This document shows positions 5,819 through 10,671 of a DNA stretch of 32,982 nt, piece after piece. The DNA is from Oscillospiraceae bacterium (GTDB lineage: Bacteria > Bacillota > Clostridia > Oscillospirales > Oscillospiraceae), in assembly GCA_021205095.1 (NCBI GenBank), contig JAJPYE010000032.1:1-32982 (forward strand), given 5' to 3'. The notes beneath the pieces are model-generated. The model was not told where the DNA came from and made no database searches. It worked only from the letters and a program-made list of their open reading frames with translations. How positions within the stretch are numbered: position 1 is the first letter of the stretch; every line of letters begins with the position of its first letter. Both the position numbers and the translations under genes were made by a program.

Positions 5819-6517
5819 ATGAAGGTGCGGCGGCGGGTAAGGCTGGAGCTGCTATTGCTGGCGGTACTGATCGTGTGCCTGGCCTATGTCAGCCGATGGG
5901 CCTGGGGGAGCAGCTATGGAAACGGCGTTTATGTGACGGACGCCGGGAAGACCATCCGGGTGGAATACGGCTCCTCCACCGGCACGGAGATCGACGTCAG
6001 TCTTTTTACTGATCCCTATGTGAAAACCGGCGGGGATCTGGCGGTTTGGGTGCAGATCGCCTGGGAGAACCAGTGGGGCTATGTGTGGGGAACCTTTGGA
6101 AACGTTTTGACCATGGACGAGTATGCGTCGAAGCTTGCCCAGTACCCGGACAATGTGGGGCGCTACAGCAGCTTTATCCTGCAAAACTGGATAGGCCGCC
6201 GGACAGCGGACTGCGTGGGGCTGATTAAATCCTACGGCTGGTACGACCCGGACACGGGGAGCATTGAATATGGTTCCAACGGCATGGAGGACGTGGACAC
6301 AGAGGGAATGTATGAGGCCGCCACGGTGAAGGGGGAAATCGACACCCTGCCGGAAACGTCGGGCGTGATAGTCTATATGCCCGGCCATGTGGGGGTATAC
6401 ATCGGCGGCGGCTATGTCATCGAGTCCATTGGCACCGAAGGAGGCGTGGTCAAAACCAGGCTGGATGGCCGGGGCTGGACGGACTGGTTCCAGTGTCCAT
6501 ATATTACATATTACTGA
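5819..6517 (+). CDS. Secreted NlpC/P60-like cell-wall hydrolase
   Basis: This is probably a cysteine peptidase acting on peptidoglycan or another exported substrate. The 232 residues start with a basic patch and one hydrophobic segment (about 7-25, LELLLLAVLIVCLAYV) that serves as signal or anchor. The catalytic pattern is readable as TADCVGLIKS (Cys132), PGHVGVYIGG (His190) and YVIES (Glu202), spaced as in NlpC/P60 domains. No SH3 or LysM domain is present. The ATG at 5819 is used; an in-frame GTG at 5810 is an alternative with an equally plausible ribosome site. It has its own promoter and terminator. Similarity is at motif level only, so the substrate is unknown. Confidence 0.75.
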   Translation: MKVRRRVRLELLLLAVLIVCLAYVSRWAWGSSYGNGVYVTDAGKTIRVEYGSSTGTEIDVSLFTDPYVKTGGDLAVWVQIAWENQWGYVWGTFGNVLTMDEYASKLAQYPDNVGRYSSFILQNWIGRRTADCVGLIKSYGWYDPDTGSIEYGSNGMEDVDTEGMYEAATVKGEIDTLPETSGVIVYMPGHVGVYIGGGYVIESIGTEGGVVKTRLDGRGWTDWFQCPYITYY

Positions 6518-6534
6518 TACGACCGAAGAACAAG

Positions 6535-6573
6535 GGCAGCATCGAAGTGGGTACACTTGATGCTGCCTTAAAT
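6535..6573 (+). terminator. Terminator of the NlpC/P60-like gene
   Basis: GGCAGCATC (6535-6543) pairs with GATGCTGCC (6559-6567), extended inward by AAGTG/CACTT with one bulge. TTAAATAATT follows on the plus strand. Confidence 0.75.
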
Positions 6574-6575
6574 AA

Positions 6576-6725
6576 TTCTTAAGTAACGGTTCCGCCGGAC
6601 TTGAGACACGCTCTCGAAGCTATGGGTTTGTAAAACGGATTGCTGTGATCCGATTTCTTTCTGATAGCCATAGCAGAAAACGGTTTGAAGGGAGTAGATA
6701 AATCAGAAAGCGCGTTGAGCATGGA
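6576..6725. other. AT-richer spacer with nested and competing dyads
   Basis: No gene is seen here. GCTATGG (6619-6625) pairs with CCATAGC (6668-6674) and encloses CGGAT/ATCCG (6636-6640, 6648-6652). A competing pair TTTCTGAT (about 6658-6665) and ATCAGAAA (about 6702-6709) overlaps the first. This marks the left border of the lower-GC block that begins with the HxlR gene and could be a remnant of an integration boundary or a structured RNA. Confidence 0.3.
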
Positions 6726-7052
6726 TTAGCTCATGCTATTTTTATAAGCCGTCCCCCACGCCTCCATAGCGTCCAGGATAGGATTCATTGACTCTCCCAA
6801 TGCACTGAGAGAATACTCTACTCTCGGCGGAACCTCAGCATAAACAGTACGAATCACAATCCCATCATCCTCCATAGATCGCAGGCTGTCTGTCAATACC
6901 TTCTGACTGATCCCCTCCAAATCGCGCCGCAGCTCATTAAACCGCCAGGGACGGGTTCGCAGATTCCGCAAAATCAGCAGTTTCCATTTACTTCCTATCA
7001 ATTCAACCGTCGTTGCAACAGGGCAAGCCGGCAGCTCGTCCTTTGTTTTCAT
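6726..7052 (-). CDS. HxlR-family transcriptional regulator
   Basis: This is a winged-helix regulator of the HxlR/DUF24 type, a family that often senses electrophiles or redox change through an N-terminal cysteine. The 108 residues carry the family signature from the start: CPVATTVELIGSKWKLLIL with Cys10, the RFNELRRDLEGISQKVLT recognition region, then the wing VYAEVPPRVEYSLS and a C-terminal dimerisation helix. The ATG at 7052 is chosen because GAGGTG ends six bases upstream; a GTG three codons earlier is possible. It is transcribed away from the peptide/radical SAM operon from its own promoter at 7109-7137, and is the likely regulator of that operon (inference from divergence). Confidence 0.9.
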   Translation of the reverse strand: MKTKDELPACPVATTVELIGSKWKLLILRNLRTRPWRFNELRRDLEGISQKVLTDSLRSMEDDGIVIRTVYAEVPPRVEYSLSALGESMNPILDAMEAWGTAYKNSMS

Positions 7053-7108
7053 AAAAGGCACCTCACATTCTATTTTCCTCTAACATCAAATCCGAATGTT
7101 ATACTCGA

Positions 7109-7137
7109 ATTATAATGCAGCACGCCATCAAAATCAA
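7109..7137 (-). promoter_or_regulatory. Sigma-A promoter of the HxlR regulator
   Basis: On the minus strand TTGATT (7132-7137), a 17-base spacer and TATAAT (7109-7114). Just downstream, around 7094-7108, CGAATGTTATACTCG is an imperfect dyad overlapping the expected transcription start and could be an autoregulatory operator. Confidence 0.7.
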
Positions 7138-7223
7138 TAGATAGAACGTGAAGATTCTCTGGACAAACCCGTGGAAAATCCATGGGTCACTTTTTTGTGC
7201 CTATGTAATAAAAAGGTGCGTAC

Positions 7224-7251
7224 TTGTTTTCAGGATCGGCACCGATATAAT
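7224..7251 (+). promoter_or_regulatory. Promoter of the Cys-repeat peptide operon
   Basis: TTGTTT (7224-7229), a 16-base spacer and TATAAT (7246-7251). The -35 overlaps GTGCGTACTTGTT, a word I suspect could be the HxlR operator, though that is a guess. The start codon of the peptide gene is 53 bases downstream. Confidence 0.6.
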
Positions 7252-7304
7252 AAAAATTACAGAGAGCCGGACAGCTCCTGAATACAAATCAGAGGTAATG
7301 AACA

Positions 7305-7493
7305 ATGGCACTTTCTAATCTTTTTGGCTGGAACAACAAAGCGGTTTCCGCCTCTTCCTGCGGTACGGCCTGCGGAGCGTCGGACAAGCCGGAAGAAAAG
7401 CCTGCCGCCTGCGGCTCTGCCTGTGGCGCTGCTGACAAACCGGCAGAGGCTCCCACGGCCTGCGGGTCTGCCTGCGGAGCGGCTGACAAGTAA
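7305..7493 (+). CDS. ACGX-type Cys-repeat peptide, probable RiPP precursor
   Basis: This is a 62-residue peptide. Residues 1-17 form a leader-like segment (MALSNLFGWNNKAVSAS). The rest is three copies of a 17-residue unit, each starting CG(T/S)ACGA(S/A)DK, with Cys at 19/23, 36/40 and 53/57, so the period is exactly 17. The linkers are Pro, Glu, Lys and Ala rich, and the third copy ends at the stop after DK. There is no signal peptide or membrane segment. AGAGGT lies eight bases before the ATG. The next gene is a radical SAM/SPASM enzyme, and the pair matches what I recall as the ACGX-repeat peptide family, predicted but not characterised. A metal-binding peptide is the main alternative. Confidence 0.85.
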   Translation: MALSNLFGWNNKAVSASSCGTACGASDKPEEKPAACGSACGAADKPAEAPTACGSACGAADK

Positions 7494-7511
7494 TCCTGTC
7501 CGCAAACCAAT

Positions 7512-7558
7512 CGCCTGGTGAATCGGTATCCATATATCGGGTATCGGCTCATCAGGCG
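7512..7558 (+). promoter_or_regulatory. Long hairpin between peptide and radical SAM genes
   Basis: Arms 7512-7531 and 7539-7558 pair over 20 positions (15 Watson-Crick, 4 G-U, 1 mismatch) around a 7-base loop. No T tract follows, so it is not a standard terminator. A small ATCCG/CGGAT hairpin with TTTTA follows at about 7572-7590. I infer an mRNA-stabilising or processing element, or partial attenuator, giving more precursor than enzyme. Confidence 0.65.
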
Positions 7559-7619
7559 CCTGCGAAACAATATCCGTTCATCGGATTTTACGATATAAAC
7601 CCAAAGGGGACCATGCTTT

Positions 7620-8669
7620 ATGAAACAGTATTTTTCCTTTCAATGGCATATTACAGACGAATGTGATCAGCGGTGCAAGCACTGCTACATTTTCTCCGAA
7701 GACGTCTGCAAAAAGCCGGACGCCATGAGCTGGGAGCAGATGCGGGACACGTTTTACAACTGCCTGGATTTCTGCGAGGTGTATCACCGTCTGCCGTATT
7801 TTTATATCACCGGCGGCGATCCCATCCTTCACCCGGACTTCTGGAAGCTGCTGGGGCTGATGAAAGAGCATGACATTCCCTTTACCATTCTCGGCAATCC
7901 GTTTCATCTGACGGATGAGGTGTGCCGCCGTCTGAAGGAGTACGGCTGCCAGAAGTACCAGCTTTCCATTGACGGAATGCAGGAAACACACGACTGGTTT
8001 CGTAAGCCCGGCTCCTTTGACATTACACTGGAAAAGATCGGCTGCATCAACCGGGCGGGCATCCGCAGCGTAATCATGACCACCGTTTCCGGCACGAACA
8101 TTGATGAAGTACCTGACATCATTGACGCTGTGGTTGCAGCCGGGGCGAATGTGTTCGCCTTTGCCCGCTACTGCCCCACATCAGAAGAAAAGGATACCGG
8201 CATCGATCCGCTCCGCTATCGGAAGCTGCTGGCGGACTGCGACAGGAAATTCAAAGCGTATGAAGCCGCCGGGTGCCAGACTTACTTCAACAAAAAAGAC
8301 CACCTCTGGACGCTCTACGAATACGAGACCGGCGCTTTCAAAATCCCCGAAACCGTGGAGGAGGGGATGATTTACGGCGGCTGCAACTGCGGCAACTGTC
8401 ACCTGACCATCCTGCCCACCGGGGATGTGTACGCCTGTCGCCGGGTACAGAACAGCAGGGTCGGCAATGTGTTTGAAGACCGTCTGGCGGATGTTTGGGT
8501 CTGCGAGATGGAGCGTTTCCGGGACTATACGAAGTTTGAGAAATGCTCCAAATGCGAGCTGCTGGCGTTCTGCCGGGGCTGTCCCGCTGTAGCCAGTGGG
8601 AAGGACGGGAATTTCTACGCCGCTGACCCGCAGTGCTGGCATGAAATATCGGAAAAGGAGGCCATATAA
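7620..8669 (+). CDS. Radical SAM/SPASM peptide maturase (ACGX system)
   Basis: This is a radical S-adenosylmethionine enzyme expected to modify the Cys-repeat peptide encoded just upstream, for example by forming thioether or other side-chain crosslinks. The 349 residues start almost directly with the cluster motif CDQRCKHCY (Cys15, Cys19, Cys22; CxxxCxxC). A TIM-barrel core follows, with GGDP near residue 64 and QLSIDGMQETHDWFR near 120. A C-terminal SPASM domain carries Cys255, 257, 260, 273, then Cys309-xx-312-x5-318-xx-321 and Cys339, enough for two auxiliary [4Fe-4S] clusters. No separate RRE domain is seen. The start is ATG at 7620 with AAGGGGA upstream. Substrate and chemistry are inferred. 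Confidence 0.9.
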   Translation: MKQYFSFQWHITDECDQRCKHCYIFSEDVCKKPDAMSWEQMRDTFYNCLDFCEVYHRLPYFYITGGDPILHPDFWKLLGLMKEHDIPFTILGNPFHLTDEVCRRLKEYGCQKYQLSIDGMQETHDWFRKPGSFDITLEKIGCINRAGIRSVIMTTVSGTNIDEVPDIIDAVVAAGANVFAFARYCPTSEEKDTGIDPLRYRKLLADCDRKFKAYEAAGCQTYFNKKDHLWTLYEYETGAFKIPETVEEGMIYGGCNCGNCHLTILPTGDVYACRRVQNSRVGNVFEDRLADVWVCEMERFRDYTKFEKCSKCELLAFCRGCPAVASGKDGNFYAADPQCWHEISEKEAI

Positions 8670-8670
8670 A

Positions 8671-9258
8671 ATGGGCGAACTGATGGAAACGATCATGCAC
8701 CGCAGAGCGATTCGCCGCTTTGACACAAGGCAGATCGAAGAGGCGGCATTGCAGGAAATCTTACAGGCCGGTTTATATGCTCCCAGCGCCGGAGGGAAAC
8801 AGGGGGTGATTCTTGTCGTCTGCCAGGACAAAGAGGTCAACGAACGGCTGGGACGCATCAAGCGGGCTAACTCCAATCCCCATATGGCGACTGCCACAAG
8901 CTATGTTTCAAAGGAGCAGCCCAGCATTGCGGATGACCCGAATATCAAAAATGCTTTTTATGATGCGCCCACGGTCATCACCATGTTTGCGCCAAAGAAC
9001 TTCCTCTTTGCCGCGGAGGACTGTGCAGTAGCCGCCGAAAACATGATGCTGGCGGCGGATTCGCTGGGCATCGGTTCCTGCTATCTTGGGCAGGGCTGGC
9101 CGGCGTTTGCCGACCCATACGGGCAGGAAATCCTGAAAAAATGGAATATCCGCACGGATTATTACGCGGTCATGCAGCTCCTGCTGGGCTATCCCCGTGA
9201 GGGAGATCCTCATCCCGCAGGAAAGCCACGCAAAAATGACCGTATATTAAGGTTTTAG
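8671..9258 (+). CDS. Nitroreductase-family FMN oxidoreductase
   Basis: This is an FMN-dependent NAD(P)H oxidoreductase of the nitroreductase fold, 195 residues. The family N-terminus reads HRRAIRRFD (phosphate-binding Arg residues), followed by LYAPSAGGKQ, the AAEDCAVAAENMMLAADSLG helix, GSCYLGQGWP and the C-terminal LLLGYP. It starts one base after the stop of the radical SAM gene, with AAGGAGG upstream, so it belongs to the same operon. Nitroreductase-fold proteins serve as dehydrogenases in some RiPP pathways (SagB/McbC azole formation). That role, or disposal of an electrophile sensed by the HxlR protein, is inference. Confidence 0.88.
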   Translation: MGELMETIMHRRAIRRFDTRQIEEAALQEILQAGLYAPSAGGKQGVILVVCQDKEVNERLGRIKRANSNPHMATATSYVSKEQPSIADDPNIKNAFYDAPTVITMFAPKNFLFAAEDCAVAAENMMLAADSLGIGSCYLGQGWPAFADPYGQEILKKWNIRTDYYAVMQLLLGYPREGDPHPAGKPRKNDRILRF

Positions 9259-9268
9259 ATGGGGGCTT

Positions 9269-9886
9269 ATGATGGATGCACAAACCTGTTTGAAGAAATT
9301 GCAGTATGTTGGCGTGCTGGCGTTCTCGACTGTGGATTCTGATGGAAGCCCACAAATCAGAAATATCAGCGCCATTCACTATGAGCCTGACGCAATGTAC
9401 TTTTTCACAGCGAAGGGAAAGAACTTCTGTCGGGAACTGTTATCCGACGGGCGGGTACAGGTGCTGGGCTACACCCGCTACAAGGAAATGATTCGTCTCT
9501 CCGCACGGGCGGTTCCCGTCCCCCAGGAGGAGCAGCAGAAATGGACGGACGTCATCTTTGAGGAGCAGCCCTATCTCGCCAATGTTTATCCCGGTGATAC
9601 AAGAAAAATCGGCATCGTTTTTGAAATACGGGATGCCGAAATCGAATACTTTCATCTCGGCGTCAACCCGATTTTCAGGGAGACCTATACGATTGGAAAG
9701 GGAACGATCCGCCCGAAAGGGTATCATATCACGGATGCTTGTACAGGCTGCGGAAAATGCGTGAAGGTATGTCCGCAAAGAGCAATCGAAAAGGGCAAGC
9801 CCAGCGTAATCCATCAGGAGCATTGTCTTCACTGCGGCAACTGTTTTGAAAGCTGCCCGGTAAAGGCAATCGAGAGACAGGGGTAA
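9269..9886 (+). CDS. FMN split-barrel protein fused to 2[4Fe-4S] ferredoxin
   Basis: This is a 205-residue fusion. Residues 1-140 are a pyridoxamine-5-phosphate-oxidase-like split barrel expected to bind a flavin (YVGVLAFSTVDSDGSPQIRN, then FFTAKGKNF). Residues 150-205 are a bacterial ferredoxin with two complete motifs: Cys158/161/164/168 (CTGCGKCVKVCP) and Cys186/189/192/196 (CLHCGNCFESCP). It can thus pass electrons between flavin and iron-sulfur clusters. It follows the nitroreductase after 10 bases and precedes a strong terminator. I infer it feeds electrons to the radical SAM enzyme or to the nitroreductase. The start is ATG at 9269; the next codon is also ATG. Confidence 0.88.
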   Translation: MMDAQTCLKKLQYVGVLAFSTVDSDGSPQIRNISAIHYEPDAMYFFTAKGKNFCRELLSDGRVQVLGYTRYKEMIRLSARAVPVPQEEQQKWTDVIFEEQPYLANVYPGDTRKIGIVFEIRDAEIEYFHLGVNPIFRETYTIGKGTIRPKGYHITDACTGCGKCVKVCPQRAIEKGKPSVIHQEHCLHCGNCFESCPVKAIERQG

Positions 9887-9937
9887 TATGGCACAGAAAG
9901 AACGAAGGATATTTTTGATTTAGACGCTTCTTTAATA

Positions 9938-9978
9938 AAGCATCCCGCCCCATTTTTCAGGGCGGGATGCTTGTATTT
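9938..9978. terminator. Bidirectional terminator between the peptide operon and the cvpA operon
   Basis: AAGCATCCCGCCC (9938-9950) and GGGCGGGATGCTT (9960-9972) form a perfect 13-bp stem with a 9-base loop. TGTATTT follows on plus and TATTAAAG on minus, so it can end both converging operons. Confidence 0.88.
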
Positions 9979-9987
9979 GAGAGGCTT

Positions 9988-10671
9988 TTATAAATACAGG
10001 CTGACAAAAATGGTGCTGTTCAAAATGGCGGGGGAGAGCCAGCTCACAGTGATGAAGGAGGCCAGCAGGGACAATACGTAGGCGTAGATATACCCGACGA
10101 TCAGGGCCTCCAGCGCGCCCAGGGCGCCGCCCAGAAGGCGGTTGGTGCGGTTGAGAATACCGCCGCCCCGTCTGCGGGAGGAGGTCAGCCGGGCCAGCAG
10201 GCCGAACAGCAGAAGGGAAACGATCAAAATCAGGATCGACAGCAGGATTTGAATCACCACCAGCAGCACCGGCTCCAGAATGGCCTGAACGATGGCCTGG
10301 GCCAGGGTGGTTCCGTCTGTGCGGAGAAGAGAGGTAATGGTTTCCAGATCCGAATCGCTGACGACCTGACCGCCCAGCAGTCCGCCCAGGTTGTCCAGCA
10401 CCTCCTGCACGTCGTCCAGGGCGTCTGCGCCGTTGTTCATGGCGGTGATGGCGTCTGCCGGGATGGCGGATTCCACCGCCGAGACCACCGGGGCCTCCAC
10501 ATAGTTGTCATAGATGGTCTGCGACCAGGAAGCGCCCCAGGTGGCGATCAGCACCAGGGCCACGGCCCAGCCCAGCATACGCAGCAGGGCGGATAACATT
10601 CCGTGCCGCCAGCCCTTCCAAATCATGGAAAGAAACAGGGCGACCAGTATTAAATCGTATATCCAGTTCAT
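9988..10671 (-). CDS. CvpA-family membrane protein
   Basis: This 227-residue integral membrane protein is related to CvpA (colicin V production family), whose role in Firmicutes is not established. Two hydrophobic segments lie in the first 45 residues (LILVALFLSMIW and LGWAVALVLIATW). An extracytoplasmic-looking stretch at about 50-115 is rich in Asp and Ser. Two or three more membrane helices follow (LLVVIQILLSILILIV, LGALEALIVGYIYAYVLSLLA), with a basic SSRRRGGG loop between. The ATG at 10671 is chosen for AAGGAG eight bases upstream. It follows the LTA-synthase-like gene after 37 bases and is probably co-transcribed with it. Confidence 0.8.
   Translation of the reverse strand: MNWIYDLILVALFLSMIWKGWRHGMLSALLRMLGWAVALVLIATWGASWSQTIYDNYVEAPVVSAVESAIPADAITAMNNGADALDDVQEVLDNLGGLLGGQVVSDSDLETITSLLRTDGTTLAQAIVQAILEPVLLVVIQILLSILILIVSLLLFGLLARLTSSRRRGGGILNRTNRLLGGALGALEALIVGYIYAYVLSLLASFITVSWLSPAILNSTIFVSLYL

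Follow-up and report, generated by a model that had tools for sequence, protein, structure and literature searches.

A 32,982-nt stretch of DNA that forms the whole of contig C11 in the genome of an Oscillospiraceae bacterium (2.34 Mb in 66 contigs), called the window below, carries a gene for a small cysteine-repeat peptide followed by one for a radical SAM/SPASM enzyme. The two belong to the ACGX family (acgA and acgM), and comparison of the locus with its relatives makes it somewhat probable that they are the core of an HxlR-controlled operon against redox or electrophile stress, built around an intracellular Cys-repeat peptide and ending in control through ADP-ribose. The ACGX pair itself is already known from family models and gene names; what is new is its association with genes for a class-M sirtuin (SirTM) and a zinc macrodomain. 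The family models cover the peptide and the radical SAM enzyme only, and the HxlR regulator, the nitroreductase or MDR dehydrogenase, the flavo-ferredoxin (FLF), the macrodomain, and SirTM are the context added here. In the open-access literature, subscription journals being mostly outside that coverage, we found no paper on the function of ACGX or on its redox or ADP-ribosylation context, nor one on radical SAM genes accompanied by SirTM or zinc macrodomains.

By its reading frames, the locus in the window consists of a divergent hxlR gene, four packed genes on one strand (for the peptide, the radical SAM/SPASM enzyme, a nitroreductase, and FLF, with gaps of 1 and 10 bp on the two sides of the nitroreductase gene), and a strong terminator. 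This layout, given in a preliminary description made from the sequence of the window, was borne out by the frames, the family scans, and the terminator fold (-28.6 kcal/mol), and so were the 17-residue Cys repeat (a 51-nt period in 2.6 copies with 73% matches) and the full set of cluster cysteines in the radical SAM enzyme. The proposed assignment of the pair to the ACGX type also held, the peptide scoring 63.7 bits against TIGR04341 (acgA; cutoff, 28) and the enzyme 604.6 bits against TIGR04340 (acgM; cutoff, 400); NCBI annotates the pair of Roseburia sp. 831b likewise. The system has few parts, all of them small, and that named isolate carries the full set in order, its annotated operon reading HTH regulator, acgA, acgM, nitroreductase, 4Fe-4S protein, protein-ADP-ribose hydrolase, Sir2, and DUF1848.

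For comparison, we used 97 ACGX loci, namely the window, 16 found in a sample of 391 genomes of the class, and 80 from species genomes, the last being the best 80 of at least 555 relatives (a choice that favors close relatives, and not all 555 need be ACGX). They fall into 48 clusters at 90% identity of the radical SAM enzyme. Three further loci (L040 to L042), in which the radical SAM enzyme scores below the cutoff and an ACGX peptide is missing, were left out of the 97-locus counts and kept in the gene-cluster run. Among related loci with enough DNA to reveal it, every element of the locus recurred in a majority, which argues that the arrangement is not due to chance. The lack of a conserved neighborhood had been named beforehand as grounds for rejecting the proposed system, and in the 97-locus comparison the neighborhood proved to be conserved.

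The first pass over the 100 loci recovered 84 peptides, 82 of them distinct, and the statistics that follow refer to these distinct sequences. The 16 loci without a peptide at this stage were L040 to L042, ten that yielded a partial peptide in a motif search, and L056, L072, and L080, which yielded none; a peptide gene or a recognizable part of one lies near the maturase gene in 94 of the 97 loci. L056 and L080 have less than 300 bp of upstream DNA, and L072 has 8 kb. The window peptide contains six Cys, each followed by Gly. Across the family (3 to 15 Cys per peptide), Gly occupied position +1 of the Cys in 536 of 542 cases and Ala position -1 in 513, and position +4 was held by Asp (280) or by the next Cys (240), together 520 of the 542, which makes ACG[S/T]ACGAxD or ACGAxD the usual unit. 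From the first Cys onward, large hydrophobic residues were almost absent. The repeat units gave a pN/pS of 0.12 over 272 pairs, a value biased by the choice of units by their Cys and Gly, and we relied on the Cys context counts instead. A peptide so rich in Cys and with hardly any large hydrophobic residues could act unmodified, binding metal or scavenging electrophiles through its thiols, the radical SAM enzyme being occupied with something else. Given the near-constant company of peptide and maturase genes and the fact that the enzyme families closest to the maturase are peptide and tetrapyrrole maturases, we consider this quite improbable.

The maturase begins directly with its radical SAM domain and hence has no fused N-terminal recognition domain. 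Its CxxxCxxC cysteines (C15, C19, and C22) and those of its SPASM domain (C255, C257, C273, C309, C312, C318, C321, and C339) were invariant in 12 aligned sequences. The best family outside ACGX was SbtM (TIGR04082; 156 bits), which also matched all 12 aligned members. SbtM resembles the ACGX enzyme as a radical SAM/SPASM protein acting on Cys peptides and, in the excerpted report on it, turns Cys into thiooxazole with the loss of four hydrogens (PMC11002830). By this likeness in profile scores, AcgM would most likely oxidize the Cys of Ala-Cys-Gly units to 5-thiooxazole (-4 H per Cys), a chemistry that the near-invariant ACG of the family fits. Several points tell against so close a parallel: the 156 bits fall short of the curated SbtM cutoff of 350, and membership of that family thus fails; the profile match begins at position 198 of 516, the first ~197 positions having no counterpart in the ACGX enzyme; AhbD scores not much lower, at 120 bits; and the ACGX substrate differs in consisting of many repeats. 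A search of 299 genomes of the phylum with TIGR04082 (E up to 1e-60) gave no match, and the controls gave none either, so that this is no proof of absence. An AlphaFold model of the maturase (mean pLDDT, 77.9; SPASM part poor) had its best structural matches in SkfB, PDB entry 5why (which we take to be CteB), SuiB, and anSME; it is consistent with a peptide maturase and gives no guide to the chemistry.

The enzyme might instead work as in ranthipeptides, joining the Cys sulfur to the beta or gamma carbon of a nearby acid (Cys-x3-Asp) with the loss of 2 H per link, to form small thioether rings. The prevalence of Asp or the next Cys at position +4 suits such rings, a divergent archaeal peptide described below retains an acid near every Cys (though as Cys-x2-Glu), and PapB makes Cys-Asp and Cys-Glu thioethers according to the excerpted report (PMC9413430). 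We nevertheless hold this chemistry to be unlikely: with 542 Cys against 295 Asp (from the first Cys on), 1:1 Cys-Asp links are impossible for all Cys, and the window enzyme fails the PapB ranthipeptide maturase model (NF047865) with 62.7 bits against a cutoff of 340, far behind its SbtM score.

With regard to the preferred thiooxazole, repeated Cys-Gly motifs are also a feature of the captophorins and bufferins, metallophores whose precursors carry this group; in the excerpted reports, EGKCG repeats, comparable to ACGxACGAxD, occur more often than any other motif, and Cys-Gly is noted as preferred (PMC12668002, PMC12538549). They are made, by the same excerpts, by multinuclear iron enzymes (MNIO) with an RRE partner, which are unrelated to radical SAM enzymes, and Pfam matched none of the five proteins encoded at the locus to MNIO or RRE. 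If the ACGX chemistry is indeed thiooxazole formation, the radical SAM enzyme would be an oxygen-independent counterpart of captophorin and bufferin synthesis, with a different class of enzyme at work on Cys-Gly repeats of a similar kind.

The slot after the maturase gene held a nitroreductase gene in 56 of 90 loci and one for an MDR (quinone-oxidoreductase-like) dehydrogenase in 29, never both at the threshold used, and 85 of the 90 had one or the other. A distant nitroreductase-like match (23 to 24%) lies further on in L056 and L057. The MDR representative came nearest to the quinone-oxidoreductase model, under its cutoff (152.9 of 296.8 bits). FLF was present in 55 of 85 loci. At E up to 1e-25, its genes were found in 30 genomes, and 29 of these also have a zinc macrodomain, and in genomes without the ACGX enzyme, 11 of 19 related FLF genes sit 4 to 22 bp upstream of the macrodomain gene. 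The FLF family thus goes with the ADP-ribosylation pair no less than with the peptide and, since the nitroreductase slot is often taken by MDR, both look more like redox partners than like peptide-tailoring enzymes. Of the two roles offered for the flavin proteins in the preliminary description, a dedicated second modification of the peptide is disfavored by the slot counts and by the adjacency of FLF to the macrodomain, and the supply of electrons by FLF is possible. An FLF with at least 60% identity to the window's occurred in 11 ACGX genomes and in G197 and G207; in G207 the contig ends ~0.7 kb upstream of FLF, and neither the maturase nor the nitroreductase was matched.

The macrodomain/SirTM pair lies outside the window and was for that reason missed in the preliminary description; with it in view, an intracellular stress response becomes likelier than an exported natural product. 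Among 68 loci with enough DNA, a macrodomain or SirTM gene was found within 4.5 kb downstream in 38 and both in 27. The macrodomain representative passes the model for protein-ADP-ribose hydrolase (NF003163; 377.6 bits; cutoff, 272), and the best PDB matches of the macrodomain and the sirtuin were 8rsi and 5a3a, presumably a Zn-Macro and SpySirTM, respectively. The class-M signature, in which QG replaces the HG of other sirtuins (PMC4518038, in excerpt), was present in 67 of 72 sirtuin copies from ACGX and other loci together, the other 5 missing the pattern. An ACGX enzyme over the cutoff occurs in 16 of the 391 genomes of the class and a macrodomain in 71, only macrodomains over the curated cutoff being counted (71 of the 125 genomes that match at E up to 1e-40). 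All 16 ACGX genomes have the macrodomain, versus 55 of the 375 others (hypergeometric, 3e-13, a figure that overstates the evidence because the genomes are not independent and the 16 fall in 10 genera). It is linked to ACGX in 12 of the 16 genomes and lies elsewhere in 4, including the window's genome, in which contig C14 encodes the macrodomain and SirTM behind another hxlR.

A classical secreted ribosomally synthesized and posttranslationally modified peptide, such as a bacteriocin or a signal, would have its repeats cut into several short modified copies for export. The leader-like MALSNLFGW start, the near-equal repeat units, and the dedicated maturase would suit such a product, but its partner genes here are stress and redox genes. 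Furthermore, no recurrent peptidase was recognized within 4 kb of the maturase gene, and one transporter-like cluster was found, in 4 loci (the check covered gene clusters present in at least 4 loci within 4 kb, five scanned with Pfam and the others by eye). We therefore think secretion very improbable.

The hxlR gene is divergent in 74 of the 86 loci with at least 1.5 kb of upstream DNA. In HxlR-type redox sensors, an N-terminal Cys has a redox role; the window HxlR has such a Cys in ELPACPV, and it is aligned in the three PDB matches shown, the matches including HxlR, YybR, and YodB entries. Upstream of the peptide gene, an exact GTGCGTACTT was present in 74 of 84 loci, in several of which, other than the window, it belongs to a longer, imperfect palindrome; in the window the left arm is weak. 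The window's genome contains three copies of the bare 10-mer, one of them in unrelated-looking sequence on contig C18, and one copy of its reversed control. A 15-base form of the site (G or T at one position) also occurs three times, versus none for the reversed control, a descriptive count and not a test, as the pattern was shaped after the C11 and C14 sites and the C64 10-mer match. Each of these 15-base sites (on C11, C14, and C64) has an hxlR gene on one side and a gene divergent from it on the other. On C14 it separates hxlR from a flavoprotein-macrodomain-SirTM operon (flavoprotein named by eye), the half-site differing from GTGCGTACTT by one mismatch, and on C64 (L194:4265-5325) the exact GTGCGTACTT lies between the third hxlR found and a divergent flavin-reductase-like gene (also named by eye). 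The SirTM/macrodomain pair may therefore share its control with ACGX in the window's genome even though the two are unlinked.

Three ACGX loci (L053, L059, and L062) have an Rrf2-like gene upstream and no hxlR match. In L158, L166, L177, L178, and L179, SirTM/macrodomain pairs without adjacent ACGX adjoin Rrf2-like regulators, not HxlR, as judged by eye. This suggests that the pair is served by two redox regulators, Rrf2-like and HxlR.

The whole gap between the peptide and maturase genes of the window folds at -40.8 kcal/mol (z, -2.9), and over 78 loci, including the window, the median z by mononucleotide shuffles was -3.5, with 70 below -2. The sequence of the hairpin varied among the 14 loci compared. 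The promoter was read by eye and is missing from a simple motif scan, and the terminator hairpin is unlisted by the simple scan because its loop has 9 nt and the scan allows 8.

For the stress operon that we favor, we infer the following course, in which the inducer, the chemistry, the target of ADP-ribosylation, and the operator function of GTGCGTACTT are all proposals. An electrophile or oxidant would modify the N-terminal Cys of HxlR and release the putative operator, whereupon the peptide would be made in excess over the maturase, aided by the hairpin between their genes. Third, the radical SAM enzyme would oxidize the Cys of Ala-Cys-Gly, most likely to 5-thiooxazole as SbtM does, to give a multi-thiol carrier for redox or metal binding. 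Fourth, the nitroreductase or MDR dehydrogenase together with FLF would cover the redox side, by detoxification, reduction of the carrier, or provision of electrons to the maturase. Fifth, the SirTM/zinc macrodomain pair would add and remove ADP-ribose as an on/off control, possibly on the peptide itself. The association with this pair would offer the ACGX family a concrete role, in redox and electrophile stress in anaerobes.

The ACGX pair and the SirTM/macrodomain/FLF group could also be two redox-stress modules under HxlR-type repressors, often clustered and with no direct chemistry between them, which would keep the first four steps and drop the fifth as far as the peptide is concerned; we give this slightly less than an even chance. 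It draws on the FLF-macrodomain neighbors that exist without ACGX, and it is joined by a number of observations that weigh against the single operon favored above. No SirTM or macrodomain lies within 4.5 kb downstream in 30 of the 68 loci, the window among them. The distances of the radical SAM enzyme were uncorrelated with those of the macrodomain (Mantel r, 0.19; 263 of 2,000 permutations as high; n = 15) or SirTM (r, 0.16; 250 of 2,000; n = 20), so that the ADP-ribosylation pair is exchangeable and not a co-inherited partner; they tracked those of FLF (r, 0.63; 26 of 2,000), nitroreductase (r, 0.31; 0 of 2,000), and MDR (r, 0.86; 1 of 2,000), and weakly those of HxlR (r, 0.24; 156 of 2,000). 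In G197 (L162, contig C14), a deletion that begins within the ACGX peptide gene and ends within the nitroreductase gene has removed the maturase gene, yet FLF, the macrodomain, and SirTM persist downstream of an operator-like site. The window nitroreductase shares only ~40% identity with its counterpart in the L024 group, versus ~75% for FLF and the maturase. Finally, similar sites stand at separate hxlR loci and, because each 15-base site borders its own hxlR, the site may mark autoregulation of each paralogue and not one regulon. Two facts speak against separate modules, the presence of the macrodomain in all 16 ACGX genomes and the repeated gain or loss of linkage: on the macrodomain tree, the linked label takes 15 changes to explain, compared with 19.4 after shuffling (11 of 500 shuffles gave so low a number), and strong branches force at least 6 of the 15. 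Such repeated change fits selection for a shared setting or a loose association of two stress modules.

As for ADP-ribose control of the peptide itself, the closest known arrangement is the extended SirTM/Zn-Macro operon of Staphylococcus and Streptococcus, which in the excerpted reports likewise combines a QG class-M sirtuin, a zinc macrodomain, and flavin/NAD oxidoreductases with a small carrier, its modifying enzyme, and a redox stress theme (PMC4518038, PMC11490716). Its lipoylated GcvH-L is ADP-ribosylated, probably at Asp27 and only after lipoylation, and is thought to act with flavin oxidoreductases in redox stress (PMC4518038, PMC11490716, both in excerpt). In the ACGX operon, by contrast, the carrier would be a radical SAM-matured Cys-repeat peptide and not lipoyl-GcvH-L, with the maturase in place of LplA2, and the window itself is without macrodomain and SirTM, the pair being on contig C14. 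A search of 36 draft genomes, 16 that have ACGX and 20 that lack it, found no GcvH close to the macrodomain (LplA was not searched for); the 20 were the best-scoring such genomes, not a random choice, and two of their macrodomain loci lie on contigs of less than 4 kb. A GcvH match of more than 30 bits was absent from 14 of the 16 ACGX genomes (drafts), and in the remaining two it was either on different contigs or 51 kb away from the macrodomain. This makes GcvH an unlikely candidate for the missing SirTM target, and by analogy with the GcvH-L operon the modified peptide would be the obvious candidate for both carrier and target. It might then, in a bolder and somewhat unlikely extension drawn from this analogy, replace lipoyl-GcvH-L as a multi-site thiol carrier in a second kind of extended SirTM operon. 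SirTM would ADP-ribosylate the modified peptide, most simply at the Asp found at the end of most units, and hold it inactive; under stress, the zinc macrodomain would free it, and the flavin/NAD(P)H enzymes would recycle it. If true, this would join radical SAM peptide chemistry to ADP-ribosylation signaling in gut Clostridia. The question of SirTM/Zn-Macro targets outside the GcvH-L operon is posed in the excerpted PMC11490716, and the ACGX peptide is a candidate answer.

Table 1. Features of the ACGX locus in the window
Feature	Position	Strand	Basis or remark
HxlR/DUF24-type regulator, 111 aa	6726..7061	-	Pfam HxlR, 107.8 bits
Putative HxlR operator half-site GTGCGTACTT, overlapping the -35 region	7216..7225	+	Exact 10-mer conserved across loci
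Probable promoter, TTGTTT (7224-7229), 16 nt, TATAAT (7246-7251)	7224..7251	+	By eye
ACGX-repeat peptide, acgA-like, 62 aa	7305..7493	+	TIGR04341
Hairpin between peptide and radical SAM genes	7512..7558	+	Folding
Radical SAM/SPASM maturase, acgM-like, 349 aa	7620..8669	+	TIGR04340; Pfam Radical_SAM, SPASM
Nitroreductase-family flavoprotein, 195 aa (start taken, ATG 8671)	8671..9258	+	Pfam PF00881, 88.3 bits
Flavo-ferredoxin (FLF), split-barrel plus 2x[4Fe-4S] ferredoxin, 205 aa	9269..9886	+	PNPOx_N and two Fer4 units
Terminator hairpin, then T-rich tail	9940..9970	+	-28.6 kcal/mol; z, -5.3

An Rfam scan of positions 6500 to 10100 of the window gave no match, and a search of viral contigs gave one pattern match and no relative of the locus. 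A defense system was considered and rejected: a library of defense genes gave nothing beyond a viperin-like match to the radical SAM domain (51.4 bits) and a weak one to a ferredoxin. Several operons with ACGX or SirTM (L034, L038, L047, L058, and L196) also include a DUF1848 gene.

The below-cutoff radical SAM/SPASM genes mentioned above are in genomes G180 (L040:8534-9580), G112 (L041), and G348 (L042), and the enzyme of L040 scored 307 bits against the ACGX model and 197 against SbtM. In L040 and L041 they directly precede a gene for a membrane protein resembling AgrB, and a GHKL-type kinase is encoded opposite (both named by eye); a link between a peptide-modifying enzyme and agr-type quorum sensing is possible there.

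A highly divergent ACG-repeat peptide, to which TIGR04341 gives no match, is encoded in an archaeon, on plasmid pNP174 of Methanosphaera sp. ISO3-F5 (L197:5673-7025). All 7 of its Cys are followed by Gly, 6 are preceded by Ala, and all 7 have Glu at position +3. The neighboring genes encode an HTH regulator, a 4Fe-4S protein, an ACGX-like radical SAM enzyme annotated as two pieces, and a zinc-binding dehydrogenase. The locus, which sits a few kilobases from BREX genes, suggests transfer between domains.

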